61,393 nt of DNA, from NCBI GenBank assembly GCA_030019365.1, contig JASEFA010000013.1, positions 1-61,393 of the forward strand, in the 5' to 3' direction. The translations under genes were made by a program, and so were the position numbers. Source of the stretch: Bacillota bacterium (lineage in GTDB: Bacteria > Bacillota > Sulfobacillia > JACIYH01). Shown here in pieces: positions 2,054 through 19,574 of the stretch. Below the pieces are notes generated by a model that saw nothing but the letters and a program-made list of their open reading frames with translations, did not search any database and was not told where the DNA came from. The number at the start of each line of letters is the position of its first letter. Position 1 is the stretch's first letter.

Positions 2054-3469
2054 TCACCGCCGGTCAGCACTGGCTCTGCGGCCCGGCGCTCCCCCGGCAT
2101 CCAGTTCTCTTACGGGCATCTTAAGGCCGAAGGGAAGAGTAGCAAGCAGGAGGAGCCCGATGGCCACGAAGGCGAGGGGGTGCGCGCCTTCTCTGGCGAC
2201 GAGCGGGAACGCCGCGCCGAGGGCCACCGGTCCCACCACTCCCCCCATGACGTTGCTGAGTTGCCGCAGCCCGCTGATGGCGCCAGCCTTGGAGACGTGG
2301 GCCTCCAGGCCCGCCGCCGCCAGCGGGACACTGGTCATCGTCGCCCCGACCCGGCTCACCAGCAACAAGAGCCCGAGCAGTGCCAGAGACGTGGGCCCCG
2401 CACCCAGTCCCAGGAGCGCGAGCGAGGTCAACGACATCCCCGCCACCACCATCACCCTGTACCCCACCTTCGGTAGCGTCCGGCCGACGAGGGGTGCGAC
2501 AATGGCTTGGGCCAGCGCTGCCGGCGTAATCAGAGCCCCGGTCTGGGCAGGAGAGGCCTGAATGGCTGGGTGCGTTTGGACGTAGACCGAAAGGAAGAGA
2601 AGAGTGCTGTACATGGTGAGTCCCTGAAGGAAAGACAGGCTGAGCACGACGCCCATTCCCTGGGTTCTCAGAAGCCCCCATTCGAGAAAAGGAGTTGCGG
2701 ACCTGTTCTCGATCATCGGCAGGGCCAGGCCCAGGGTGGCTCCCGCGACAAGGAGAGCGACGACCGGCGGGGAGGCGAATCCTGCCTGTCGGCTGAGAGT
2801 CAGCGCCACCATGACTGTGACCACGAGCCCGGAGAAGACAACGACCCCCGCCGCGTCCAGTATCGTCTTCGGCCCACCCCCGACCCGGGCCTGTCCCGGC
2901 TCGCGCCAGAAGCCGACGGTCAGGAAGAAGATGGCCAGCCCCAAAGCGGCGTTGAGGAGGAAAATGAGCTGCCAGGGGTAATACGACGCGAGGAGTCCCC
3001 CCAGGTTCGGGCCCGCCACGGCCGCGACGGGACTGACCATCCCGGCCATGCCAATGGTTTGTGTCCGCTGCCGGCCTTTCAACTGGGAGCTTATCAGTTT
3101 AAGGCCCACCGGCGCGAAGGTCCCCCCGCCGAAACCCTGGAGGGCCCGGAGCCCGAGGAGAAGACCCATCGACCTGGGAAGCACCCAGCCGACCAGACCC
3201 CCCAGCAAGGAGCCGACGGTGAAGACACCCATCCCGAGCAGGAAAGCCTTTCGAGGACCCCACTCATCGGCCATCTTGCCGCCGATGGGCATGGCCACAG
3301 CGGCGGCCAGGAGGGAGGCGGTCGTGAGCCAGGGCAGCCAGTCAACAGCCCACGGAAAGGTCCGGCCGATAGTGGGCAGGGCCGTGACCACCACCGTCAT
3401 CTCCATAGTCCCAAACAGCGTGGCCAGGATCACCAGGACGACAGGTACAGTAGCAGTGCCTCGTCTCAT
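2054..3469 (-). CDS. MFS drug/metabolite exporter, DHA2-like (14-TM type)
   Basis: 471 residues of almost continuous hydrophobic segments, consistent with a 14-helix H+-antiporter. The N-terminus matches DHA2/EmrB-type carriers (TVVVTALPTIGRTF, then the loop GGKMADEWGPRKAF). The motif GPNLGGLLASYYPWQLIFLLN corresponds to antiporter motif C in helix 5. Its ATG overlaps the stop of the ArsD-like gene (ATGA), so it is translationally coupled to the ArsA/ArsD-like pair. That context suggests export of a metal or metalloid conjugate or a drug, but substrate cannot be read from the sequence. Confidence 0.85.
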   Translation of the reverse strand: MRRGTATVPVVLVILATLFGTMEMTVVVTALPTIGRTFPWAVDWLPWLTTASLLAAAVAMPIGGKMADEWGPRKAFLLGMGVFTVGSLLGGLVGWVLPRSMGLLLGLRALQGFGGGTFAPVGLKLISSQLKGRQRTQTIGMAGMVSPVAAVAGPNLGGLLASYYPWQLIFLLNAALGLAIFFLTVGFWREPGQARVGGGPKTILDAAGVVVFSGLVVTVMVALTLSRQAGFASPPVVALLVAGATLGLALPMIENRSATPFLEWGLLRTQGMGVVLSLSFLQGLTMYSTLLFLSVYVQTHPAIQASPAQTGALITPAALAQAIVAPLVGRTLPKVGYRVMVVAGMSLTSLALLGLGAGPTSLALLGLLLLVSRVGATMTSVPLAAAGLEAHVSKAGAISGLRQLSNVMGGVVGPVALGAAFPLVAREGAHPLAFVAIGLLLLATLPFGLKMPVRELDAGGAPGRRASADRR

Positions 3470-3930
3470 TGGCCGTCCTCCTGTCGGTCGGGCCCGGCTG
3501 ACGCCACGGCCGCGCTGAGTTCCTGCAGGGAGGGAACGTCGCTCACGAACGCGGCCCGCCCGTTCACGGCAATGACCGGGGGTATCATGAAAAACACAAT
3601 GCTAATCTGCCTTAGCCGGGCCATAACCGCAGGCCCTGGGGCGAGTCCTGCCCGCAGGGCGTCGAGCTCGTGGCGCAACCTGGCCCACTCCTGCACGTTC
3701 CGCGCAAACGGCAGCTCGTATCCGGCCGCTTCCAGCGCCTCGGCCATGCCCACGTAGTAGGTGAGTCGCTCGGGTCGGGTAGCGGCGGGAACGACTTCAA
3801 TCTTCACCTTGTCGCCCAGCCGCACCTTCGCCTCGCGGAGGAGCCGGGCCACGGCGACGTTCTTGCCCGTGAAGTCCGGAACGCAGCAGTCGAGGCGCGG
3901 GAAGACGGTAACCCTGACCGCATCGCTCAC
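3466..3930 (-). CDS. ArsD-like thioredoxin-fold protein with vicinal cysteines
   Basis: 154 residues starting at GTG 3930. An N-terminal beta strand is followed by Cys15-Cys16 (FPRLDCCVPDFTGKNVAV), and a central segment IPPVIAVNGRAAF resembles the cis-proline strand of a thioredoxin fold. ArsD metallochaperones have the same arrangement (a strand, a CC pair, 'PxxxVxG') and pass As(III) to ArsA. This protein is longer than classical ArsD (~120 aa). The GTG overlaps the frameshift-corrected stop of the ArsA-like gene, and its own stop overlaps the MFS start. The functional assignment is inferred from context plus the CC motif; a general redox role is possible. Confidence 0.65.
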   Translation of the reverse strand: MSDAVRVTVFPRLDCCVPDFTGKNVAVARLLREAKVRLGDKVKIEVVPAATRPERLTYYVGMAEALEAAGYELPFARNVQEWARLRHELDALRAGLAPGPAVMARLRQISIVFFMIPPVIAVNGRAAFVSDVPSLQELSAAVASAGPDRQEDGQ

Positions 3931-4858
3931 TGGGCTTCACCCCCGTAGAGGACCTCCGCCACTGCCGCAGCAGGGCAAGGCCCCTCACCTCACCGGGTAG
4001 CAGTGGAACTTCGGCGATGATCTTCCCGGCAAAGGTTTCCCGGACTCGTGCCAGGTGGCGTTGCTGCATCTCGTACCGCCGCCAGAAGTAAGGCGTATCA
4101 GCCCGGCGGACCTCCACCTCGGGTAGAACCTCGTTGACAATCAGGGCCGGGACGGCGATGTCGTGCTGGGCGAGTTCCGCGAGCGCCCGCTCCGTCTCGG
4201 CGATGGGGAGAGTTTCGGGCCAAAGCACGTAGAGAAAGGCCGTGCGCTCGGAGGATGTGATGAGTTTCATCGTCTCCCGAGTTCTCTGCTCCTCCCGGGC
4301 GATGAGGGCCAGGCGCGCCTCGCTGCCAGCTGGCGCGAATTCGGCGAATGGGTCACCTCCACCGTAACGTCTGGCCATGGTGAAGGGCAGGGTTATCTCC
4401 ACCAGGGCCCGGCCACCGGGTGCGGTGTCGAAGACTATGGTGTCGTAGTCCCGTGCCCTCTCCGTGAAGAGTTCCATGAGCTTATAGAAACTCGCCATCT
4501 CCATGGCACATGGCGAGATCTCTTTGCTCATGAGCTCCATGAGCTCGGACGGTCCGAAGACGTCCTGAACCATCGCGGCCAGGTGGAGCCAGTTCTCCCT
4601 CACGAGCGCCCGCGGGTCAGTCTCTGTGACGGATAGCCCAGGCACTCCGGCAATCTGCCGGACCCGGTGGCCGATGTCGGTCGCGAAGATGTCGCTCAGA
4701 CTCCGCTGCAGGTCTGTAGAAACGAGCAGGACACGACGGTCCGCATCTGCGAGACGGACCGCTGTCGCAGCGGAAATGGTGCTCTTGCCCACACCCCCCT
4801 TTCCCCCAACGAACAGGAACCTGGTCTCGGACTTGGGCTCAACTACCCTCCACAGCAC
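3927..4858 (-). CDS. ArsA/GET3-type ATPase, single-domain, with apparent frameshift near the 3' end
   Basis: GTG start at 4858 behind GGGGGGAGGTC. P-loop GGKGGVGKS at residues 18-26; switch motif DTAPGGRALVEI corresponds to the DTAPTGHTLR of the ArsA/GET3 family. There is one ATPase domain of ~310 residues, as in dimeric single-domain ArsA homologues. The natural frame runs past the usual C-terminus to 3797. One base off, from about 3975, the other frame reads AVAEVLYGGEAQ and stops at 3927-3929. That ending fits the family and gives a 4-bp GTGA overlap with the next gene. Either a one-base sequencing/assembly error or a real mutation is likely. It would power metalloid extrusion together with the ArsD-like and membrane partners. 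Confidence 0.75.
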
Positions 4859-4897
4859 GAGATAGACCTCCCCCCGTCAGCTGTCCACGGCGTTCAG

Positions 4898-4926
4898 TGT
4901 AGACCCTTCCGTTACGTGAGAGTCAA
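4898..4926 (-). promoter_or_regulatory. predicted sigma-A promoter of the ArsA-like operon
   Basis: On the minus strand TTGACT (4921-4926) is followed after 17 bases by TCTACA (4898-4903); TACACT two bases further on is an alternative -10. It lies about 40 bases upstream of the GTG start. Confidence 0.5.
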
Positions 4927-4964
4927 GCGCCGGCCGCTGCCAATCCTCTTCGGGCCGGACGCTG

Positions 4965-5084
4965 TCAGGGCGCATCAAACTCGGTGGGGCTGACCGCATC
5001 GAGCATCAACCAGACCAGGTCACCTGCACGGAGCCAGTCTCGTTGGCTAGACGGCACTATGTACGCCTGCTCATCTGCTGTGCG
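4965..5084 (-). mobile_element. N-terminal relic of an IS1182-type transposase
   Basis: The frame encodes AYIVPSSQRDWLRAGDLVWL followed by MLDAV, then a stop at 4965-4967. This resembles the N-terminus of IS1182/DUF772 transposases (LPPSLRDWLPEDHLVWFILDAV). No catalytic domain follows, and no terminal inverted repeats are evident. It sits in the divergent intergenic region between the arsA-like and arsR genes. Confidence 0.5.
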
Positions 5085-5160
5085 AGGAGGAGACACAGGG
5101 ACCGAGGAAGGTTGTCCTGGACATCGCAATACTGGGCGGGGCCCCCCTGGGCGCAGCCCC

Positions 5161-5189
5161 TTGACACGCGACAAGGGGCGTGGTATGCT
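5161..5189 (+). promoter_or_regulatory. consensus sigma-A promoter of the CC-protein/arsR/arsP operon
   Basis: TTGACA at 5161-5166 and TATGCT at 5184-5189 are separated by exactly 17 bases. The predicted start (~5196) falls inside an inverted repeat (5193-5216), and a leader of about 190 bases precedes the first gene at 5384. Confidence 0.8.
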
Positions 5190-5192
5190 GAC

Positions 5193-5216
5193 ATCGTGTT
5201 AGTGCGATATCACGAT
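5193..5216 (+). promoter_or_regulatory. inverted repeat at the transcription start, candidate ArsR operator
   Basis: ATCGTG (5193-5198) is repeated inverted as CACGAT (5211-5216) with a 12-base AT-richer spacer. It covers the predicted start point of the 5161 promoter, the usual place for an ArsR-family operator. The ArsR encoded at 5630 is the obvious candidate ligand; this is inference. Confidence 0.5.
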
Positions 5217-5383
5217 TCCCACACGCCCGGAGCGCCGAAGGAATACCGCCCCAGCCACCGGCGGCTCCAGGGAGGCGATCTCCGAAAGTCTGTCCTACTG
5301 ACTTCGCCCCGAGCGGATCACCTGGATGTCCTGGAAAGGGACCCATCGGAGGGCAGCAGTGTACGGGAAGGGGGGTGTTTTGG

Positions 5384-5587
5384 ATGGTGACCAAGAGGAG
5401 GGGAATTGTCGGCCTGCTCAAGAGGTCGCTGGGCATCTCCACCCGCGATTGCTGCGGCGGCGATCCGAAGGCGCCGCGGGTTGGCGACCCCGACCACGGT
5501 ACGGGTCCGTGCTGCGACGAGCCTGCCGACCCGAAGACGGTCAGGCCGGGCCGCGAAAAGGCGGACGACGGTTCGGACCGCTGCTGA
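5384..5587 (+). CDS. 67-residue protein with two vicinal cysteine pairs
   Basis: ATG 5384 follows GGAAGGGGGG at good spacing. The product has a basic N-terminus (MVTKRRGIVGLLKRSLG) that could form an amphipathic helix, then a polar, Gly/Pro/Asp-rich body with Cys23-Cys24 (RDCCGGD), Cys43-Cys44 (GPCCDEP) and a terminal Cys67. No known domain is recognised. It is the first gene after the promoter at 5161 and lies 42 bases before arsR. CC pairs bind trivalent arsenic or antimony in other proteins of this type of operon, so a metalloid-binding or delivery role is a reasonable inference, not shown. Confidence 0.65.
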   Translation: MVTKRRGIVGLLKRSLGISTRDCCGGDPKAPRVGDPDHGTGPCCDEPADPKTVRPGREKADDGSDRC

Positions 5588-5629
5588 GAGCTCTTACATA
5601 GAAGTGGCTCTACTCAGGGGGGACGCCTC

Positions 5630-5989
5630 TTGGCAGTTGACCGGCAGGACAGCGCAGGTCTGTGCAAGGTTTTCGCGGCGCTGGCCAATCCCCATCGCCT
5701 GCGGATCTACGAATCCTTGTTCTCGGGCTGCCTTTCGACTTGCTGCGACCGCATCGAGAGATGCGAGCCGGCGATGGCCCAAACCGACGTTGTGCGGCTG
5801 CTGGGCCTTGCGCAGTCAACTATCTCCCACTATCTGAAGGTGCTCGAGGACGCCGGGCTGGTCAGAACAGAAAGGCGAGGACCGTGGACCTGCTACTTCC
5901 CCAACTACAGCCAGGCAGCCAAGATCGGGGCGTTCTTCAGCGAGCTCGCCAGCCGTGAGGCGCAGCCGACCAGTCCCGAGACACCGTAG
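5630..5989 (+). CDS. arsR: ArsR/SmtB-family metalloid-responsive repressor
   Basis: 119 residues, TTG start behind GGGGGGA. Winged helix: LCKVFAALANPHRLRIYESL, then the recognition region VVRLLGLAQSTISHYLKVLE, then a wing ending in GPWTCYF. Cysteines 34, 38, 39 and 45 (SGCLSTCCDRIERCEP) form an insertion just before the HTH rather than the classical ELCVCDL in the recognition helix. That makes a non-classical trivalent metalloid site likely. It should repress the operon from the inverted repeat at 5193. The arsP-like permease follows directly. Confidence 0.85.
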   Translation: MAVDRQDSAGLCKVFAALANPHRLRIYESLFSGCLSTCCDRIERCEPAMAQTDVVRLLGLAQSTISHYLKVLEDAGLVRTERRGPWTCYFPNYSQAAKIGAFFSELASREAQPTSPETP

Positions 5990-6054
5990 GAGTTCTTTTT
6001 TTGGCTATCCGTATCGGGGTATCGAAATATTGGAGTACGGGGAGGCTCCCGACC

Positions 6055-6987
6055 ATGGGTAACTGGCTCGAACAGACGGGCCACGCGCTGGCCGTCACCT
6101 TCTTGCACAACTGGCCCATCTTGCTTGCGGGCACGGTCATCGCCGCAGCCACGCAGGTCTACATCAGCCAGGACAGGCTCACCGCCTTTCTCAAGAAGAA
6201 CTCCCGCCGTTCCATTGTCCTGGCCGTTGGCGCGGCGGTCCTGACTCCGCTCTGCTCGTGTGGCACGATGGCCGTCATCTTAGCCATGCTGGCGTCGGTG
6301 GTTCCCTGGGGGCCGATTGTGGCCTTCATCGTGGCTTCCCCGCTGACGTCGCCGGCGGAGTTCTTCTATCTCGCCGGTTTTCTGGGTTGGAAGTTCGCCG
6401 GGTTCCACCTTCTTGCGTCCACAGCGGTCGGCCTGGCAGCCGGGGCGATCGCCGACCGCCTGGATCGCGCGGGTTGGTTGGCCGGGCAGGCCCGGTATCA
6501 GGCGGGACCTGAGAGCCACCCGGGCGGGGGTGAGGTGGCGGCGACCGGGGCCAGCACGCCTGCCGGCGGACTCCGGCCCGGGATCCTCTTGCGCGAGATT
6601 GTGTTGACGGCCTACCGGCTTGTCCCGCGCTGGGTGGCCTTCGCCGCCATCGGCTACGGCGTCCTCTACTTGATGCCGCCCGGTCTTACCGAGAACCTCA
6701 TGGGGAACCGCCACGCCTGGTCGGTGCCGGCGGCCGCTCTCCTGGGCCTTCCTCTTTACATCAACACCGACACCGCAGTCCCACTGCTCAAGTCCCTCGT
6801 GGACGCCGGCATGAGCCAAGGAGCTGCCATGGCCTTCTTCATCACCGGCCCGGCCACGAGCGTAGGGGCACTGGCCGGGCTGATGACCGTTGCCCGCAGT
6901 CGCGTCATCATCCTGGTCCTGGTCATCATCCTCGCCGGCGCGATCCTCGCCGGCCTGTCGTTCGAAGCAGTTAGCGCCTTATTCTAG
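6055..6987 (+). CDS. arsP: ArsP/DUF318-type permease
   Basis: 310 residues from ATG 6055 (GGGGAGG ten bases upstream); the frame is open from a TTG at 6001. About eight to ten hydrophobic segments. It carries both hallmark repeats of the family: TPLCSCGTMAVILAML in the first half and PLYINTDTAVPLLKSLVDAG with FFITGPATS in the second. ArsP members export trivalent organoarsenicals; related permeases act with ArsR/ArsA on inorganic arsenite. The TPLCSCG cysteine pair is present. A Gly/Ala-rich cytoplasmic loop joins the halves. It is co-transcribed with arsR and the CC protein. Confidence 0.85.
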   Translation: MGNWLEQTGHALAVTFLHNWPILLAGTVIAAATQVYISQDRLTAFLKKNSRRSIVLAVGAAVLTPLCSCGTMAVILAMLASVVPWGPIVAFIVASPLTSPAEFFYLAGFLGWKFAGFHLLASTAVGLAAGAIADRLDRAGWLAGQARYQAGPESHPGGGEVAATGASTPAGGLRPGILLREIVLTAYRLVPRWVAFAAIGYGVLYLMPPGLTENLMGNRHAWSVPAAALLGLPLYINTDTAVPLLKSLVDAGMSQGAAMAFFITGPATSVGALAGLMTVARSRVIILVLVIILAGAILAGLSFEAVSALF

Positions 6988-7043
6988 CAGGGCGAAGCGC
7001 ATACCAGAACCAGTTGGCGCCAAGCAACGACCCGCCCTGGCTC

Positions 7044-7071
7044 TTGCCTTCCTGTCCAGACAGGCTATACT
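7044..7071 (+). promoter_or_regulatory. promoter with a palindromic operator between -35 and -10
   Basis: TTGCCT (7044-7049) and TATACT (7066-7071) are 16 bases apart. A perfect 6-base-arm palindrome, CCTGTC-CA-GACAGG (7051-7064), fills the spacer. A repressor bound there would block the polymerase. The MFS gene at 7109 begins about 30 bases beyond the predicted start point. Confidence 0.65.
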
Positions 7072-7108
7072 TGGTAGCGTGTGGCGACGGCGTATTGGAG
7101 CCAGCAGA

Positions 7109-8425
7109 ATGGCGGTAATGGCCCGAACTACCGCGATCGTTCGCCCGGGGATTGGTCTCGATGGCTTCAGCCGCGGGCTCCTGTTGCTGGGGCTCGCCGT
7201 AGTTTCCTTTGGCCTGGCCGAGTTTGCCCTCTACGTGGCCCTGCCGGTCTGGATTCTGGAGCAGTCTGAATCAGCCGGGGCCGTAGGCATGTCCTTTATC
7301 CTCAGGATGCTCCCCGCTTTCGCCGGACCGGCCCTCGGTTCGGTCGTGGACCGCTTCCCGAAGCGCCGCCTGATGGCCCTCGCGGGGACGCTCAGCGCCC
7401 TCCTGGTCGTCCCCGTGATTGTCACCGTGAGCCGCGGGCAGACCCTGCCCATCTATATCGCCATCCTGGGTTGCTCCGCGTCCTTCCTCCTGTTCAACCT
7501 GAGCCGGCGCTCCGCCGTCCCGGAAATCGTGCGAGACCCCGGGCGGCTCACCCGGGCGAATTCCGTTCTTTCCGTCGCCGCCTCGCTGGCCCAGGTGGCG
7601 GGTGCCGGACTCGGGGCACTGGTGCTGCGGAGGCTGAACCCATCGGGGGTAGTGGCGGCTGCCGCCCTCCTCTACCTCGCCAGCGGGATCGTGGCGTCGC
7701 AGGTCCCAGCGTCCGCACGCGCGACCCGGGCCGGCCCGGCCGCGGACTCCCGGCCGGGCGTCCAGCCGGGACTGCCCGGAGACGCACCGCCCGGGAACGC
7801 GGAGTCCGCGGAAGAGGCGACCGAGCGGTCGGGGGTCAGGGACCCCGGTCGTCCGGTCGTGCTCGGTGTCGTTCTCCTCATGGGGCTCGAGATGCTGGCA
7901 GCCGGCCCCTTCATCGCCTACCAGATCATCTTCGTCCAGACGAACATGGGCTTGCCGCCGGAGTTCTTCGGATACCTTTTCTCGGCGCAGATGGCCGGGA
8001 ACTTGCTGGCCGCCAGTTTTCTGGTGGGATGGGCCCGAAAGGTAGCGCCCGGCAAGCTGCTGCCGCTCAGCATGGGCGGCCTGGCCCTGAGTTCAGCGGT
8101 CTTCCTCACCGGGTCGCCGTTCTGGGTCGTGTCGTCCCGGCTGCTGACCGGCATCGCCGTGTCAGCCAAGGTCGTGGCCGACGATACCTTGATCCAGACC
8201 TACGCCCGCCAGCGCCACCTGGGAAGGACCTTCGCCCTCGGGAGCGTCTCCGGCGCGGTCGCGGAGACAACTTCCATCGCGCTGGCCGGCTGGCTCGTAC
8301 CCCGAGTCCCTCTCCCGCAGGTATTCGCGGTTTCCGCCACCTTACAGGCCTGCGGTATCCTGGTCGGGTTGCGCATCCAGACCCTGGCCCGAAGAGCCTG
8401 CCCCGGCACCTGCCGCAGCCGGTAG
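7109..8425 (+). CDS. MFS exporter (EntS/MFS_3-like)
   Basis: 438 residues from ATG 7109 (GGAG upstream). Twelve predicted hydrophobic segments with the motif-A loop SVVDRFPKRRLMAL between helices 2 and 3. A hydrophilic central loop of ~50 residues rich in Gly/Pro/Glu divides the halves. MFS_3 proteins such as EntS export siderophores and macrolides. The substrate is unknown here, and no biosynthetic genes adjoin it. The operator palindrome in its promoter suggests induction by a ligand whose regulator is encoded elsewhere. Confidence 0.85.
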   Translation: MAVMARTTAIVRPGIGLDGFSRGLLLLGLAVVSFGLAEFALYVALPVWILEQSESAGAVGMSFILRMLPAFAGPALGSVVDRFPKRRLMALAGTLSALLVVPVIVTVSRGQTLPIYIAILGCSASFLLFNLSRRSAVPEIVRDPGRLTRANSVLSVAASLAQVAGAGLGALVLRRLNPSGVVAAAALLYLASGIVASQVPASARATRAGPAADSRPGVQPGLPGDAPPGNAESAEEATERSGVRDPGRPVVLGVVLLMGLEMLAAGPFIAYQIIFVQTNMGLPPEFFGYLFSAQMAGNLLAASFLVGWARKVAPGKLLPLSMGGLALSSAVFLTGSPFWVVSSRLLTGIAVSAKVVADDTLIQTYARQRHLGRTFALGSVSGAVAETTSIALAGWLVPRVPLPQVFAVSATLQACGILVGLRIQTLARRACPGTCRSR

Positions 8426-8675
8426 ACAGCCTGGCCGGAGGGTCGGCCGGGACACGGGCGCCATCAGCAACGTCCGTGGGCTCGGCCTTATGGTCGCCTT
8501 CTCCGTCGGCTCGGACGAGGCCGGTCGGGCGCTGGAGCGGTGGCTGGCCGCCGAGCGGATTGTGGTCGGCTACCAGCCGCCTTTCCGTACCTTTCAACTG
8601 ATGCCCGCATACATCATCACAGACGCCGAGGTAGACAGGCTCTGCCACGCCCTGAGGCGGGCGTCGTGCACCTAA
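8425..8675 (+). pseudogene. C-terminal relic of a class-III aminotransferase
   Basis: The frame encodes ISNVRGLGLMVAFSVG, then WLAAERIVVGYQPPFRTFQL and MPAYIITDAEVDRLCHALRR. This is the conserved C-terminal lobe of the acetylornithine/4-aminobutyrate aminotransferase family ('VRGxGLM', 'RLxPPLxIT-x-x-EID'). No PLP-binding lysine region precedes it; the upstream sequence is the end of the MFS gene. A deletion fused the MFS stop to this tail. Its stop overlaps a transposase relic on the other strand, which may mark the breakpoint. Confidence 0.7.
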
Positions 8676-8838
8676 TACCTAATCGCAAGTACCCGAGGAC
8701 CCAGGTGAGCAAAGATGTGCCGCCTGACGTACTGCGCCAGCAGGCACCCGAAGGCGTGGCACATCACCCGGTCCCCCAGCCTGTGAAACACCGGCCGCAG
8801 TTCCAGCTCCGTCTTCGTGTCCCGGATGTCACGTCCTC
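8672..8838 (-). mobile_element. C-terminal relic of an IS4/IS1634-type transposase
   Basis: The minus-strand frame reads RDTKTELELRPVFHRLGDRV, then MCHAFGCLLAQYVRRHI and a stop at 8672. It matches the end of IS1634-like DDE transposases ('K-T-x-LE-x-RPV-x-H...R-x-x-GH-x-x-x-C-x-LA'). Only ~55 codons survive and no inverted repeats were found. The rest of 8839-8999 shows no gene. Confidence 0.6.
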
Positions 8839-8999
8839 CTGACTTCCCTGCCAGAAGGAGCCAGTAGAAGCCGGAGGCGGACGGGTCCTGGCCCTTGGAG
8901 GTTGGAGTCGGGTGTGCTGAAATGTAGCTCGGCTTGACCTCCTACCGCCCCGGGGCTGTTTGTCACGGGGACACTCTCGTCGACCAGGGAGGGCCGCAG

Positions 9000-10187
9000 G
9001 TGACGGGTACCTCACCGACCGCCCGCAACGTTCCCATCCTCGCCTTGACCACCGGCGTCAATGTCGTGGGCATGACTACCTGGATTCCGATTTTGCCCCT
9101 CATCCTTCGCGACCTCGGGGCCCCGGACTTCTGGATTGGTTCTTCGGTCGCCATTTGGACCGTGGTGGGTTCCCTGTTTCAATACCAGGGTGGCGTGTGG
9201 TGCGACCGCCTCGGGCGGCGCGCCCTCATGGTTTACCCGACTTACCTGGGAGGGTTGCTGTTAGGCCTGGCCAGTTTCATGCCGTCCTGGAAAAGCTTCG
9301 TCCCGGTGTACGTTCTCTGGTACGCGATGAACTCGCTCCAGGATCCGGCGTTCCCGGCCATCGTTGGCGAGTCGGTGCCCGCGCCCGCACGGGGCCATGC
9401 GTTTGGGCTGTTTAAGCTGTTCATAGCCGCTGCGGGGGCCGCCGGACCGTTGATAGGGGCGGTCTTGCTGCCTTCCGTGGGCTCACGCGGCCTGCTCCTG
9501 GCCACCAGCGGTGCCTTCCTCGCCACGGCGGCTGCCCGGCAATTCCTCCTCCGCGAGACCAGACCCGCGGCCGTGCAGCAGGGCGGTCTGGCTTGGGCGG
9601 AGTTGTTGCAGGGGCGGCTGGGGCTGGTGCTCCTTATCCTGGTATGCCAGACGGCTATCGTGGCCCTTGGTCTCTATGGCCCATTTCTCACCCTTCACGC
9701 GCGCGACGCTATGAGCCTGAGCAAGAGCGAGATAGATGTGCTCTATGCACTCGCCTACATCCTGGCAGCCTGCGCCAGCCCGTGGGCGGGGAAAGCGGTC
9801 GCCACGTGGGGTGCCGACCGGGTACTGGCATGGGCCGCCCTGACCCTGGGTGCCTCGTTGCTGTTCTGGACCGCCCAGACCCGCCCGGTCCTGATCGTGG
9901 CGTGGATGTTGGTCTCCGCGGGGTGTTTTCAGTTCCTGGTGGTGGCCGGCGACGCCTTTCGCGCGACCGCTCTGCCGGACTCGATCCGGGGGCGGGCTCT
10001 GGGCGCGATCGGCGCCATCAGCCGCGTCATCTCCGCGGCGGAGGTATTCCTGGCCGGACACTGGCGCCTGAGCGCCCCGGTGGCTCCCTTCCTGCTCCTG
10101 GCCGCCACCGCCCTGGTGGCCTTCGCGGGGGTCCAGGTCCTGGCGGCACGTGAGAGGCCGGCGGGCACCGTGACTCCCGGCACCTGA
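9000..10187 (+). CDS. MFS transporter
   Basis: 395 residues from GTG 9000 (AGGGAGGG upstream). Twelve hydrophobic segments; motif-A loop GGVWCDRLGRRALMV; the second-half loop is degenerate (AGKAVATWGADRVLAW). The protein is short and has no extra domains. It lies alone between the transposase relic and a dead GNAT gene, so no partner hints at its substrate. Export of a drug or metabolite is the default expectation for this group. Confidence 0.82.
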   Translation: MTGTSPTARNVPILALTTGVNVVGMTTWIPILPLILRDLGAPDFWIGSSVAIWTVVGSLFQYQGGVWCDRLGRRALMVYPTYLGGLLLGLASFMPSWKSFVPVYVLWYAMNSLQDPAFPAIVGESVPAPARGHAFGLFKLFIAAAGAAGPLIGAVLLPSVGSRGLLLATSGAFLATAAARQFLLRETRPAAVQQGGLAWAELLQGRLGLVLLILVCQTAIVALGLYGPFLTLHARDAMSLSKSEIDVLYALAYILAACASPWAGKAVATWGADRVLAWAALTLGASLLFWTAQTRPVLIVAWMLVSAGCFQFLVVAGDAFRATALPDSIRGRALGAIGAISRVISAAEVFLAGHWRLSAPVAPFLLLAATALVAFAGVQVLAARERPAGTVTPGT

Positions 10188-14179: not shown

Positions 14180-14490
14180 ACCAGGAACGGGCCGTTGGCG
14201 TGCAGCTATGGTGCGCCCGGATCCGCCGATACGCGGGAGACTCCCCAAGAAGGATTCAGCACGCCAGCAGCCACGTGCGCCAGCGTCGCCGGAATGCCCC
14301 GCCACGATGATGTCCCCCGACGTCATGGGCAGGGTGGTGGCCATCATGCGGATGGTGGTGGTTTGCCCACGGGGTCGGGCCCGAGCAGGCCGAAGATCTC
14401 GCCCCTTTCGATGATGAAGCTCACCCCATCCACCGCCGTGATCCCATCGAAGACTCGCTGCCAGGGCCACGGGTGGGGAAATCGTGGTGG
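14180..14490 (-). pseudogene. N-terminal relic of an ABC-transporter ATPase
   Basis: One minus-strand frame gives VFDGITAVDGVSFIIERGEI followed by FGLLGPDPVGK. The next frame continues TTTIRMMATTLPMTSGDIIV and AGH. Together they are the Walker A region of a NatA/DrrA-type ATPase with a frameshift inside the P-loop itself. No Walker B or signature motif follows. The gene is clearly dead. Confidence 0.75.
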
Positions 14491-14682
14491 CTCTGGCCAC
14501 CACCCCCCTGCCCCATCCTGGGGCTCGTCGCCGGGGCCTGCGGGGACCGCCGGGATCGGAAGACGACCACGTCAAGACCCAGCAGCATCATTCACTCGCC
14601 GATCATTGGCTCCTCCCCGGGGCAAATCCCCGTGGTAACCTGGGATGGGTCGAAACGCTTCGCCGGAAAGGAATGGTGGGAG

Positions 14683-15081
14683 ATGAAGGCTTCCGTTGAG
14701 ATCTGGGACGCTTTCACCGACGTTCCGTTCACGGGCAACGTGGCCGGGGTCGTCTTGGACGCCTCGGACCTCACGCCCGAAGACATGCAGCGAATCGCCG
14801 CGGAGTTGAACGCACCGACGACCGGTTTCGTGGTGGGACACGAACCTGGTCCGCCCCCTGTGTTCGAGGTACGGTACTTCACACCGCAACGGGAGATAGC
14901 ACTGTGCGGGCACGTGACCGTGGCCCTGTTCACTGCGCTGGCAACCAGCGGACACTGCCGGCCGCTCCCGGAAGGCACGACAGCGTACCAGCGCACAGCA
15001 GTGGGCTTGCTCCCCGTCACCCTCTTTTCCTGTTGCCGACCGGGGGAGCCGGGGGAGGCTGGCGCGTTGACAACTTCTTAG
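14683..15081 (+). pseudogene. PhzF-family isomerase, truncated to the N-terminal half
   Basis: ATG 14683 follows GGTGGGAG. Residues 1-~90 are good PhzF sequence: WDAFTDVPFTGNVAGVVLDA, then PTTGFVVGHEP and VRYFTPQREIALCGHVTVAL. The family signature 'FTP-x-x-E-x-x-LCGHAT' is intact. After ~residue 120 the homology ends and the frame stops at 15081. PhzF proteins are ~260-300 residues with two similar halves, so half is missing. The tetR promoter lies in its last 20 bases. It might still be translated but should not be active. Confidence 0.7.
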
Positions 15082-15095
15082 CGGAACTTTATGAT
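15067..15095 (+). promoter_or_regulatory. consensus sigma-A promoter of the tetR-ABC operon
   Basis: TTGACA (15067-15072), 17-base spacer, TATGAT (15090-15095). The predicted start is ~15102. GGGAGG at 15126-15131 would be the ribosome-binding site of the tetR-type gene. Confidence 0.8.
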
Positions 15096-15140
15096 ACAAG
15101 TGCTCTCACAACGTTCCCATTAGACGGGAGGGTCGAAGCG

Positions 15141-15935
15141 ACGGCACCGAGGCGACGGCAGGACCGGAAAGAAGAGATCCTCGAGGCGGCGGCCGACCTT
15201 CTCGCGGCCGGCACCGAACCGCGGCGCCTGACCATGGACGGCGTCGCGGCACGCGCCGGCATCGGGAAGGCCACTCTGTACCACCACTTCCCCGACCGCC
15301 AGTCACTCTTGAGCGCCCTGGCCGCGCGGGGTCTCATCCACCCGGCCGAGGCGGCGCTCGACCGACGCGAGGCCATCCTGCAGGCCGCCCTCCGGACATA
15401 CGCCACCCTGGGACTCCCGGCCGCCACGATGGAAGAGGTCGCGCGGGAAGCCGGGGTGAGCCTCGCTGCCCTCTACCGGCACTTCCCGACCAAAGACAAC
15501 CTTGTCGAGGCCCTCCTCCGGCGGTTCTCGGTCCTTGACGACGTCACCCGCCTGGCGGCTCCGGACTTCACCGGCGACGACCGCGAGGCCCTCTACTCCC
15601 TCGCCCTGCGCCTGCTCCAGGTGGCCGTCGAGCGGGCTCCTTTGGTCCGCCTGGTGCTGAGCACGGCGCCGACCCACCCGGAGGCCGCCCGGGAGGCCTT
15701 TCGCCAGGGTCCCGGGCGGGTCATAGCCTTGCTCGCCGCGTACATCGACAGCCGGGTCAGGGCCGGCGTTTTCCGCCCCGGCGATGCCCTTGTGCGCGCC
15801 CACTGCTTCGTCTCGATGTGCGTCATGTTCGGCCTGGCTGCCTCTGTGCCCGGCTTGGCGCCGGCCCTCCCATTGTCCGCCGTGGCCCGAGAATACGCCG
15901 ACCTGTTCTACGAAGGCCTGCGCCTCAGAGAGTGA
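15141..15935 (+). CDS. TetR-type regulator with two tandem HTH domains, likely ACG start
   Basis: Homology begins at APRRRQDRKEEILEAAADLL, but no ATG, GTG or TTG lies between the promoter (TSS ~15102) and codon 32. An ACG at 15141, nine bases behind GGGAGG, fits as a start (or a mutated ATG) and gives 264 residues. The first TetR-type HTH spans residues ~10-55 (LTMDGVAARAGIGKATLYHH) and a complete second one ~75-120 (ATMEEVAREAGVSLAALYRH). One C-terminal ligand-binding/dimerisation domain follows. Most TetR proteins have a single HTH. It precedes the ABC exporter operon by 28 bases and most likely represses it. Confidence 0.8.
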   Translation, partial: TAPRRRQDRKEEILEAAADLLAAGTEPRRLTMDGVAARAGIGKATLYHHFPDRQSLLSALAARGLIHPAEAALDRREAILQAALRTYATLGLPAATMEEVAREAGVSLAALYRHFPTKDNLVEALLRRFSVLDDVTRLAAPDFTGDDREALYSLALRLLQVAVERAPLVRLVLSTAPTHPEAAREAFRQGPGRVIALLAAYIDSRVRAGVFRPGDALVRAHCFVSMCVMFGLAASVPGLAPALPLSAVAREYADLFYEGLRLRE

Positions 15936-15963
15936 CGCAGCCTTGCTGGGAGGGTGATGCGAC

Positions 15964-16896
15964 GTGCAACCGGCTATCCAGACTTTCGGTATAACCCGGC
16001 GCTTCGGCGACCTTGTCGCCGTGGACGGGCTCGATCTCACCGTGGAGCCCGGCGAGATTCTGGCTCTGCTCGGCCCTAACGGCTCCGGGAAGACAACGGT
16101 CATTAACATGCTCAGCGGTCTGCTCCGGCCCACGAAGGGCCGGTGCCTGGTAGCGGGGCTCGACCCTGTCACGGACCCGGTCGGCGTGCGACGCCGCCTG
16201 GGCGTGTGCCACCAAGAAACGCTCCTTTACGATGAACTTACCGGGCGCGAGAACCTGTGCTTCGCCGCCGATCTATACGGACTCCCCCCGGCCTTGGCCC
16301 GGCGTCGCGCGGGAGAACTCCTCGAGCTCATGGGCCTCTCCCACCGCCAGCACGACCGCGTGGGGACGTACAGCGGCGGGATGCAGCGCCGCCTGGCGCT
16401 GGCGCGCGCCCTGCTGGCCGACCCCCCGGTCACTGTTCTGGATGAACCAACTCTCGGCGTCGACGTCCAGGCCAGAGCTGCCATCTGGGACTACATCCGC
16501 CTCCTGGCCGGACAGGGCAAGGCGGTCATGCTCACGACCAACTACATGGAGGAGGCCGAAGCCCTGGCCCACCGCATCGCGGTGATCGACCGCGGAAGGC
16601 GGGTCGCCCTGGGTACGCCCGAGGAACTCAAGGACCTGGTGGGCGGCGACATTATCGAGACGGAGCTGGCCGGAGACGCCGCTGCCTTTGCGCCGGCGGT
16701 ACGGCAGCTTCCAGGAGTCCGGGGCGTTTCGGCCCAGGCCAGCCGTCTAACGTTAACCGCCCAGGACGGGGCGACTCTCCTACCCAAGGTCCTCGCCCTC
16801 CTCAGCGACTCGACGACGGTTCGGGCCGCCTCGCTGCGGCGGCCCAGTCTCAACGACACGTTCCTGCAACTGACAGGCCGAGAACTGCGCGATTAG
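15964..16896 (+). CDS. ABC exporter ATPase (DrrA/NatA type)
   Basis: 310 residues, GTG start behind GGGAGGGTGATG. Walker A LLGPNGSGKTTVINML, signature YSGGMQRRLALARALLADP, Walker B VTVLDEPTLGVD, H-loop LTTNYMEEAEALAHR. A C-terminal ~80-residue extension (LVGGDIIETELAGDAAAFAP onward) is usual for drug-exporter ATPases. It pairs with the two ABC-2 permeases that follow at 16912 and 18063, forming a heterodimeric efflux pump under the double-HTH TetR regulator. Confidence 0.9.
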   Translation: MQPAIQTFGITRRFGDLVAVDGLDLTVEPGEILALLGPNGSGKTTVINMLSGLLRPTKGRCLVAGLDPVTDPVGVRRRLGVCHQETLLYDELTGRENLCFAADLYGLPPALARRRAGELLELMGLSHRQHDRVGTYSGGMQRRLALARALLADPPVTVLDEPTLGVDVQARAAIWDYIRLLAGQGKAVMLTTNYMEEAEALAHRIAVIDRGRRVALGTPEELKDLVGGDIIETELAGDAAAFAPAVRQLPGVRGVSAQASRLTLTAQDGATLLPKVLALLSDSTTVRAASLRRPSLNDTFLQLTGRELRD

Positions 16897-16911
16897 GACG
16901 GTGAGCCACCG

Positions 16912-18057
16912 ATGAGGTTCTCGCATGGCTTCTGGCGGGCCCTTTCAGGTATGGCGGCCAAGGACCTCCGCCTCCTGGCCCGCGACCCGCGGGCGGTGAT
17001 TGCCAACCTGGTGCCGCCCCTTTTGCTCTTGCTTATCCTGGGCGTCACGGGAGCGGCGGGGTCGCGCCTTCCCGTCGCCCTGGCACCTATGGGGGAAGGC
17101 GTCTACACTTCCCACCTTGTGGAGCTAGCCGGGAGCATCCGCACGCCGACCTCGCCGTATTTCGCCATCCGGACAACCAACCCCGACGAAGCGCTCAGGG
17201 GCTTCGCGGAGCGGCGCTACCTTGGCGTCATCGAAATCCCCGCTGACTTTGACACCCGTATCGCCTCCGGCAAGCCGGGCGAAATCATCCTGCATCTGCA
17301 CAACTTCAACGCCGACCAGGCGAAAAACTTCAGAATGAGGGCCGAGGTCCTGGCCTGGACTTTCAACCACGAGGTGCTCCCAGCCGACCTCTACCCGGTG
17401 AAAACTCGCCTGGAGATGCATGAGGACCGGCCTGTGGAGGTTCCCTTCCATCACGCCCTGGTGGCGGGGGTCGCTGCCCTGGCCGTGCTCCTTGGCGGCA
17501 CGGTGGGCGCTGGTCTTGGGCTGGCCCGGGAGTTCGAGCGCGGCACCTCCCGCCTGCTCCTTCTCTCGCCGGCTAACCCGTTGGCCCTGGCGCTGGGCAG
17601 GCTCGTGGTGGGGCTCGTCGAGGCGGTCCTGGCCGGAACCGTCGCTTACGGCGTCGGTCGTCTCCTCTTCGGCGTCCCCGTGGAGGGACGCCCGGCGGAG
17701 GTCGCCCTCGTGGCGGTGGCCCTCGGCCTCTATGGTGCCAGCGTGGGGACAGTTCTCGCGCTGGGTGCGCCACGCCTGCCCCCGGCCATGGTGGGCGCCA
17801 TATTCTATTCCGTCCTGTCCTGGATTTTCGGGGGGGGCATGGCCGAGACAAGCCTTTTTACCCACGTCTTTCCCCGCCCGCTCCTCTGGCTCAGCCGACT
17901 TAACCCCGCGACCCGCGGAATTGACCCGATCGTCCGGCTGATAAACCTCGGGCATACGGCCACGCTGGAGCTGGACCTGGGCGTGCTCCTGGCCGCAACG
18001 GCGGCCCTCCTTCTCGTGGCCTGTCGCCGGTTCACCCGTCTGTCGGAAGGGAAGTAA
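16912..18057 (+). CDS. ABC-2 type permease subunit
   Basis: 381 residues. One transmembrane segment near the N-terminus (residues ~25-45), a large extracytoplasmic domain (~50-175), then a block of five or six helices: the ABC2_membrane_3 layout. The soluble domain has RRYLGVIEIPADFDTRIASG and LHLHNFNADQAKNF, also found in the partner at 18063 (VIPADFDQSL, YLHNWNSDLDQNY). The two permeases are therefore paralogues, probably from an old tandem duplication. ATG start; 15 bases after the ATPase stop. Confidence 0.85.
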   Translation: MRFSHGFWRALSGMAAKDLRLLARDPRAVIANLVPPLLLLLILGVTGAAGSRLPVALAPMGEGVYTSHLVELAGSIRTPTSPYFAIRTTNPDEALRGFAERRYLGVIEIPADFDTRIASGKPGEIILHLHNFNADQAKNFRMRAEVLAWTFNHEVLPADLYPVKTRLEMHEDRPVEVPFHHALVAGVAALAVLLGGTVGAGLGLAREFERGTSRLLLLSPANPLALALGRLVVGLVEAVLAGTVAYGVGRLLFGVPVEGRPAEVALVAVALGLYGASVGTVLALGAPRLPPAMVGAIFYSVLSWIFGGGMAETSLFTHVFPRPLLWLSRLNPATRGIDPIVRLINLGHTATLELDLGVLLAATAALLLVACRRFTRLSEGK

Positions 18058-18062
18058 GAATC

Positions 18063-19145
18063 ATGCACGCCTTTCTCCGGTCAGCGGCAGGAACTCTCCG
18101 CAAGGACCTGACCATATGGCGTCGGGACCGGCCGGTGCTGGCGGTCGGCGTCATCGCGCCCCTGGGGCTCTTGCTCATAATGGCCCTCTTCTTCGGTGCC
18201 GGCGGCCGACCGGACGCCGCCCCAGTCGTACTGGTTTCGGAGGGTCAAGGGCCGGTCGCCGCGCGCCTGGCCGAAACGTTCCGCAGCATCCGGTCGCAGG
18301 TCAGCCCATGGTGGAAGCTGCTGCCGCCCAACCCCCGGCTGTTTGCCAGCGAAGAGGTCCCGGGCATGGCCGTCATCCCGGCCGACTTCGACCAGTCCCT
18401 CACTCTGAAGTTCTATCTGCATAACTGGAACAGCGACCTCGACCAGAACTACCGCTACCGCCTGGCCTACACGCTCGGAACGTTGGAGGCGGGCTTCCCT
18501 GAGAATAGGGGCATCCGGGTCGTCCGGCGGGAGACTCTGAGCCGCGACGTCACCTGGGCGGCCTACATGGCCGGGACGACCCTGGCCTACGCCGCCATGC
18601 TGGCCGCCATCCTCTTCGGCGGGGTAGCCGCCGCGAGGGAAACAGAACGGGGCACAGCACGCTTCGTTGGTTCGACTCCCGCCAGCCCCTGGGCCCTCGC
18701 TCTCGGCCGAACCCTGGCCGCCGCCGCCGGGGCGTCGATTTCGGCTTTGGTCGCCTGGGCTTTCGCTGCCCTCCTCTGGAAAGTGCGGGTCTCCGGTCCG
18801 GCGTCCTCGCTGGTTGCCGTTCTCTTCCTCGAGGCCCTGGCCTTCGCCGGGCTCGGCGTTTTCCTGGGTGGCCTCCTCCGGCGGCAGCACTTGCTCATGC
18901 TTCCCACGGGGCTGATCGCGCTGCCCCTGTGGTTCCTGAGCGGGGGCATCGGGCCGGTGGCCCTCTTCCCGCAAACCCTTCAGACGCTTGCGCGTTGGCT
19001 TCCGACGACCTACGCCTTCGGAACGGTGAGCCAACTGGTTCTCTTCGGAAGTGCGGGCGACTTCGGCCTGACCCTGGCGGTGTTGGCGGGTACAGCTATA
19101 GTAACCTTCGGCCTGGCTGGCGTGGTGACGGCCCGGCCAAGCTGA
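18063..19145 (+). CDS. ABC-2 type permease subunit (paralogue of the preceding one)
   Basis: 360 residues with the same architecture: N-terminal helix, extracytoplasmic domain with VPGMAVIPADFDQSLTLKFY and LHNWNSDLDQNYRYRLAYTL, and a C-terminal group of six helices. ATG six bases after the previous stop. Together with the ATPase it forms the complete exporter. Substrate is unknown; members of this group export drugs, lipids or peptides. A short hairpin (GGAGTT...AACTCC, ~19170) follows without a U-run. The sequence 19146-19370 shows no other gene. Confidence 0.85.
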   Translation: MHAFLRSAAGTLRKDLTIWRRDRPVLAVGVIAPLGLLLIMALFFGAGGRPDAAPVVLVSEGQGPVAARLAETFRSIRSQVSPWWKLLPPNPRLFASEEVPGMAVIPADFDQSLTLKFYLHNWNSDLDQNYRYRLAYTLGTLEAGFPENRGIRVVRRETLSRDVTWAAYMAGTTLAYAAMLAAILFGGVAAARETERGTARFVGSTPASPWALALGRTLAAAAGASISALVAWAFAALLWKVRVSGPASSLVAVLFLEALAFAGLGVFLGGLLRRQHLLMLPTGLIALPLWFLSGGIGPVALFPQTLQTLARWLPTTYAFGTVSQLVLFGSAGDFGLTLAVLAGTAIVTFGLAGVVTARPS

Positions 19146-19370
19146 CACCGTCACCCGCGGCTTCCCGCGGAGTTGAGCCCAACTCCCCGTGGGCTTCGTG
19201 AGGAACCACGACCGATGGTACCACGCGCACTGCGATTCTGCACGGTGATGGGTCCTGACGACCGCCTCAAACCTCGCTACGGTAGTAAGCACGCGACAAC
19301 TTCTGCCCCCGCTCTTCACTCCACCGGGGGTCCTGCCCCGCGAATGCGAGGCTGCGAGGTAACCTCATCG

Positions 19371-19574
19371 ATGGACTTCTACGTGAATCCGTATCTCTGG
19401 GAGCAGCAGATCCACCGCTGGCACGCAAACGGCGGGCTGGGATGCTGCCGGGACAAGGCCAGCGACCTGCCCCCCGAGTTTCACTTGCAGGTGGCGGCCG
19501 TGAGGAACCAGTGCCGCCCCCTGTCCATACGTTCTGGGCGAATCAGGCGGCAGGGAAAGGGGAATCTCAAATGA
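19371..19574 (+). CDS. 67-residue protein of unknown function, coupled to the methyltransferase
   Basis: ATG 19371 follows GCGAGGTAACC at good distance. The product (MDFYVNPYLWEQQIHRWHAN at the N-terminus) is rich in aromatic residues, then has GLGCCRDKASDLPPEFHLQV and a basic tail. There is no signal peptide and no known domain. The stop overlaps the methyltransferase ATG (ATGA), which suggests translational coupling and argues for a real gene. It contains a vicinal CC pair, like some arsenic-island proteins, but no other similarity was seen. Confidence 0.5.
   Translation: MDFYVNPYLWEQQIHRWHANGGLGCCRDKASDLPPEFHLQVAAVRNQCRPLSIRSGRIRRQGKGNLK

Follow-up and report, generated by a model that had tools for sequence, protein, structure and literature searches.

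We identified a TetR-family regulator in which two tandem HTH domains precede a single ligand domain. Its gene lies in a Bacillota genome, in the window (the whole stretch of DNA that was analyzed, 61,393 nucleotides), at 15141..15935 on the plus strand, and comprises 264 codons counted from an ACG. TetR_N matched this protein twice, at 15177..15320 (HTH1, 44.1 bits) and 15375..15515 (HTH2, 57.2 bits), both against a cut-off of 24, and a TetR_C_7-like ligand/dimerisation domain follows at 15591..15866 (TetR_C_7 39.4 bits, cut-off 22); all three are read on the plus strand. Over the whole protein, TetR_N scored 90.6 bits in two stretches (hmmscan, E 5.3e-26, cut-off 24). The initial annotation had placed two TetR DNA-binding domains before one ligand domain, and this is borne out, with the Pfam cut-offs exceeded in a single frame that is open over 14700-15935. 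An HMM built in this analysis also recovered the two domains (E 2.7e-16 and 1.1e-19). The whole genome holds only four TetR_N matches, spread over three proteins. A TetR_N match above the curated cut-off and a helical C-terminal ligand/dimerisation domain place the regulator in the TetR family, but its two tandem HTHs depart from the usual plan of a single N-terminal HTH per subunit. Judged by its sequence, it is an architectural variant within the family.

We sought other double-HTH TetR proteins and found ten rare ones with the order HTH-HTH-ligand domain, every one of them with HTH1. When 154 genomes of the window's class were searched with the protein, the sole full-length match was in G009 (44% identical, E 4e-49). 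The same architecture was found in G008 and G066 by reading their loci, profile searches added double-HTH proteins in G185 and G304, and a profile search added those of five congeners of G304 (G540, G541, G543, G547 and G549). A Pfam scan of five relatives gave two TetR_N stretches in all five and TetR_C_7 in four, and our own HMM found two TetR_N-type domains in each of the five G304 congeners. In the own-class search the double proteins separated cleanly from the rest (four at E <= 2.4e-87, next match 8.3e-38). Counted over the genome sets surveyed, which overlap one another, the architecture was present in 4 of the 154 genomes from the class of the window, in 6 of the 82 from that of G304 (all from one genus), in 1 of the 3 from that of G185 and in 3 of the 398 drawn across the phylum. 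Neither of two further genomes from the window's own genus carries the regulator, and the best ATPase relatives there are 44-48% identical. Among plasmids, 15 records matched and none covered 80% of the regulator. A pattern scan of 84,980 species, which reaches close relatives only, returned 15 loci, and two HTHs were present in none of them.

HTH1 is as well conserved as the remainder of the protein. Between the window and G009 proteins, identity is 46% in HTH1, 44% in HTH2 and 41% in the rest; between G008 and G185 it is 54%, 44% and 36%, respectively. The spacing between the HTH1 and HTH2 motifs is 65 residues in the window protein, 64 in G009, 65 in G008 and G185, 63 in G304, 58 in G066 and 62 in the five G304 congeners, so that 10 of the 11 proteins fall within 62-65. 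The G008 and G185 proteins (L079 4064-4834 and L081 4180-4974) also have the inter-HTH linker LPxLExxRPExEKKR in common. A tree that included 40 single-HTH controls (from 74 single-HTH frames) paired the HTH1 domains by lineage: window with G009 (95/78), G008 with G185 (98/96) and the G304 genus together (100/99). The deep branching of this tree lacks resolution and does not separate one origin of the architecture from up to three. The presence of HTH1 in each of ten other double-HTH proteins argues against a stray duplication. We conclude that selection has maintained HTH1 as a component of this protein.

Structure prediction agrees with this domain make-up. The AlphaFold model of the regulator, from a six-sequence alignment (mean pLDDT 84.4, pTM 0.62), contains the helices of two complete HTH units. 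Residues from about 65 to 264 of the model match single-HTH TetR-family structures with Z up to 16.0 (3.9 A rmsd over 194 residues). The tandem HTHs modelled alone reached pLDDT 87.8 and pTM 0.56; each half of that model matched TetR-family HTHs, so that, for example, residues 1-64 matched 7k1a_B (Z 11.1, 1.3 A over 63 residues) and residues 74-128 matched 1vi0_B (Z 12.2, 0.7 A over 55 residues). The pTM values of 0.62 and 0.56 are too low to fix the mutual orientation or angle of the two HTHs. None of the 50 structure matches listed was seen to span both HTHs. The 60 PDB profile matches listed, of 194, begin at profile position 57 or later and cover HTH2 and the ligand domain only; among those 60 no chain with the order HTH-HTH-ligand domain was seen.

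Among the closest known systems are the classical single-HTH repressors of the AefR/TetR_C_7 type, which share TetR_N and a TetR_C_7-like ligand domain with the regulator. The structural matches FrrA, EthR, NalC and 3bhq align from about model residue 65 (Z 14-16). Compared with these classical repressors, the window regulator has one extra complete TetR_N in front. Two non-identical TetR HTHs per polypeptide also occur in the double TFRs of Actinomycetes, Mce3R among them (PMC11667970). Mce3R is described as two whole TFRs fused in the order HTH-ligand-HTH-ligand (406 residues), with a non-palindromic site (PMC11667970). In contrast, the window regulator places both HTHs before one ligand domain within 264 residues, and with only one such domain it does not consist of two complete HTH-plus-ligand units per chain. 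TFRs of the QacR type bind long operators, and QacR itself binds a 28-bp palindrome as a tetramer (PMC4482099); there, four HTHs per operator come from two dimers, whereas the window regulator could supply four from one dimer. In the CC-licensed PMC papers, which are far from all of the literature, no TetR protein described was found to carry two tandem HTHs ahead of a single ligand domain.

The regulator is the first gene of an operon on the plus strand. A DrrA-like ABC transporter ATPase (15964..16896) begins 28 nt past it, with ABC_tran and DrrA1-3_C above cut-off and TIGR01188 drrA just below (306.9 bits, cut-off 312.45). Two ABC-2 permeases with Pfam matches follow, at 16912..18057 (54% identical to the G009 counterpart) and 18063..19145 (52% identical over residues 1-208). 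The domain make-up is conserved together with this operon in G009, where the homologue heads an ATPase (61% identical) and then both permeases. The three exporter genes had no match in the G008, G066, G185 and G304 loci, and in G008 the gene after the double-HTH regulator encodes a protein without a Pfam match. On the other side of the regulator, a phzF-type 5' fragment (14683-15081, profile positions 2-102 of 281) ends at the regulator's promoter; the genome also has a whole phzF copy at another site (C3:38880-39824). Close together at 2054-10187 of the window lie three matches to Major Facilitator transporters (2054-3469 on the minus strand, 6890-8425 and 8934-10187). Rfam gave no match across the window.

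The start of the regulator gene lacks a canonical codon. A sigma-70-type promoter, TTGACA-17-TATGAT (15067..15095, plus strand, 11/12 matches), is the only promoter-like site in 14400-19500 (shuffle mean 0.3). Downstream of it, the Shine-Dalgarno sequence GGGAGG, which had been noted ahead of ACG 15141, is indeed found at 15126..15131 on the plus strand, nine bases before the ACG. Of nine start positions compared for anti-SD pairing, four of them neighbouring-gene starts, ACG 15141 was the strongest (-13.0 kcal/mol, with an assumed anti-SD string that may not be that of this genome). By its Shine-Dalgarno and its position, this non-canonical ACG (15141..15143, plus strand) is the best-placed candidate start. 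Over 15141-15233 the GC content at the three codon positions is 0.81/0.58/0.81, similar to 0.76/0.50/0.87 in the remainder of the gene, as against 0.57/0.48/0.43 directly upstream of 15141. The third-position value of 0.81 is at the coding level, compared with 0.43 upstream, and the HTH1 half is coding. Together, the promoter, the Shine-Dalgarno and the rise in GC3 place the start near 15141. Most likely, as read from these signals, translation begins at 15141 or within a few codons of it, and would be of low efficiency if the ACG is real. In one study, translation initiation has reportedly been measured from all 64 codons. A short frame in another reading frame, ATG ATA CAA GTG ... TAG (15091-15123), ends just 5' of the regulator's Shine-Dalgarno and could be a leader peptide or chance.

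The initial annotation had taken the ACG for the only start that keeps HTH1. This holds in that no ATG, GTG or TTG is read in frame between GTG 14904 and ATG 15234, but GTG 14904 is itself in frame. The listed ORF of the regulator frame opens at this GTG, 79 codons 5' of ACG 15141. It stands 5' of the promoter, within the phzF remnant that is read in another frame, and we consider it an unlikely start. Among the ten relatives, the inferred starts, placed by position upstream of HTH1, are ATG in G185, G304, G066 and G549, GTG in G009 and G008, and TTG in G540, G541, G543 and G547 (several TTG candidates in G541), giving four ATG, two GTG and four TTG, with the window protein as the exception. 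TTG is thus the apparent start in four of the five G304 congeners (L107, L108, L109 and L111). Weak starts may be common for the double-HTH architecture, to judge from these genes.

The absence of a canonical start codon is a point against our best explanation, that of an intact regulator, and three other accounts of the start have to be weighed. It is conceivable, if somewhat doubtful, that the ACG is a sequencing or assembly error and that 15141 in truth carries an ATG (or GTG), which would make this an ordinary double-HTH regulator. The well-placed Shine-Dalgarno, the single transition that separates ACG from ATG and the ATG, GTG or TTG codons of all ten other double-HTH genes are consistent with such an error. 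Against it, GCGACGGCA is identical in both copies of a repeat across the start, a weak hint that the base is genuine. This repeat is a 14-nt tandem near-duplication (15134..15161, plus strand, 12/13 identical; CGAAGCGACGGCA at 15134 and CGAGGCGACGGCA at 15148) that falls between the Shine-Dalgarno and HTH1, and of 1022 tiles of the window, 5 hold an adjacent repeat of this quality. The near-duplication is a hint that the leader was rearranged, and since its length of 14 nt shifts the frame across the start, the regulator gene is possibly damaged.

The start codon may have been lost recently, by rearrangement or mutation of the leader, leaving the regulator little translated and the exporter operon transcribed constitutively; we regard this as unlikely. 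The ACG does stand where a canonical codon would be expected, the near-duplication spans the start and is rare in the window, and the neighbouring phzF is likewise just a 5' fragment. In all other respects, however, the 264-codon frame is intact, and its GC3 is of the coding type over the whole length. In addition, when one repeat unit is omitted by inspection, the sequence still has no canonical in-frame start codon, so the duplication alone is insufficient to explain a loss. A real ACG start, a broken start and a sequencing error are indistinguishable from the present data. Translation from ATG 15234, which would give a single-HTH protein of the classical kind, with a 30-residue tail, and leave HTH1 as untranslated debris, is very improbable: this codon is the first in-frame ATG and acceptable to annotation programs, but it has no Shine-Dalgarno (-3.0 kcal/mol with the assumed anti-SD), lies 139 nt 3' of the promoter and within HTH1, and the ten relatives have canonical codons upstream of HTH1 and keep it. 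ATG 15234 does cut into HTH1, as first annotated, and the alternative single-HTH product suggested at the same time is unlikely. A check for homologues that begin at the corresponding position without HTH1 did not refute the double-HTH reading: the 44% identical homologue and nine more distant ones all carry HTH1.

The promoter contains a candidate operator, AACTT N8 AACTT N8 AAGTG N8 ACGTT (15072..15115), with four half-sites at a 13-bp period and 18/20 matches. Two direct half-sites (AACTT 15072 and AACTT 15085) face two others (AAGTG 15098 and ACGTT 15111). It is the best four-half-site arrangement in 15056-15130 when every position is tried with periods from 9 to 16 and central gaps from 3 to 12. 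A score of 18 was reached by 1 of 500 shuffles of this region and 2 of 300 of a longer stretch, p values that are optimistic because the pattern was first noticed by eye. Among 70 single-HTH control promoters, three reached 18 and none beat all of its own 40 shuffles. As a family trait the pattern failed: in five of five relatives, including G009, at least 85 of 150 shuffles matched the promoter's own score. The unusual operator geometry proposed in the initial annotation is plausible for this promoter, where the four-half-site pattern is present, but the pattern is absent from the five relatives tested. The candidate fits two half-sites read per subunit, and is only suggestive of it.

A competing reading of the same region is an imperfect inverted repeat of 49 bp (15076..15124, 19-bp arms, 14/19 complementary), whose centre lies about 6 bp off that of the four-half-site candidate. 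Its p value is about 0.02 at mismatch penalties of 1.0-1.2 and 0.08-0.27 at 1.5-2.0. With 100 shuffles for each of six double-HTH promoters, inverted-repeat p values were 0.01 in the window and 0.00 in G008, and lay at 0.27-0.60 in the remaining four promoters. Operator width was rejected as a double-HTH signature, as 17 of the 70 single-HTH control promoters have inverted repeats at p <=0.033, several of them 34-57 bp long. In the genus of G304, five genomes keep a 36-bp block, TGGTACT...T...ACAC...GTT.AGTATATTACC, with two-tier symmetry (outer TGGTA/TTACC, inner ACAC/GTT; permutation p only 0.05). The block (L107-L111) lies 101-211 nt upstream of the double-HTH gene, between that gene and minus-strand frames farther upstream, and CTGTCAATAT comes after it in all five.

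We interpret the regulator as probably an autoregulating TetR-family repressor of its own DrrA-like ABC exporter operon, with two HTHs and one ligand/dimerisation domain per subunit and two half-sites read by each. As the product of the operon's first gene, ahead of the DrrA-like ATPase and the two ABC-2 permeases, it would form a dimer that presents four HTH units at its own promoter. By analogy with TetR-family biology, this dimer would cover the -35, the -10 and the transcript start, and RNA polymerase would be blocked. A toxic compound, the exporter's probable substrate, would fill the ligand pocket, and the dimer would then leave the promoter. The type of exporter suggests a hydrophobic toxic compound as the ligand.

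The two HTHs could instead be used alternatively, one HTH pair per dimer at a time on two kinds of operator, which we hold possible but not likely. HTH1 and HTH2 of the window protein are 38% identical to each other, yet each is conserved with its G009 counterpart. The near-constant HTH spacing, on the other hand, fits simultaneous contact somewhat better, and the composite block conserved in one genus also favours simultaneous contact somewhat; neither is decisive. An extended form of the autoregulating-repressor reading is that the regulator belongs to a rare TetR branch, inherited separately, that binds four half-sites per dimer with a constant period of about 12-13 bp, and that in this genome a true ACG also keeps synthesis low. 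We think it improbable that all of this holds. If a true ACG start does keep synthesis low, a tight composite operator would need few repressor molecules.

ACG 15141 offers a clean case in which a possible non-canonical start, natural to a bacterium, can be tested. TetR repressors are standard parts for sensors and gene circuits, and it is generally assumed that each subunit has one HTH. A tandem-HTH form from nature, with its near-constant linker, would illustrate how a single subunit can gain in operator length and specificity.
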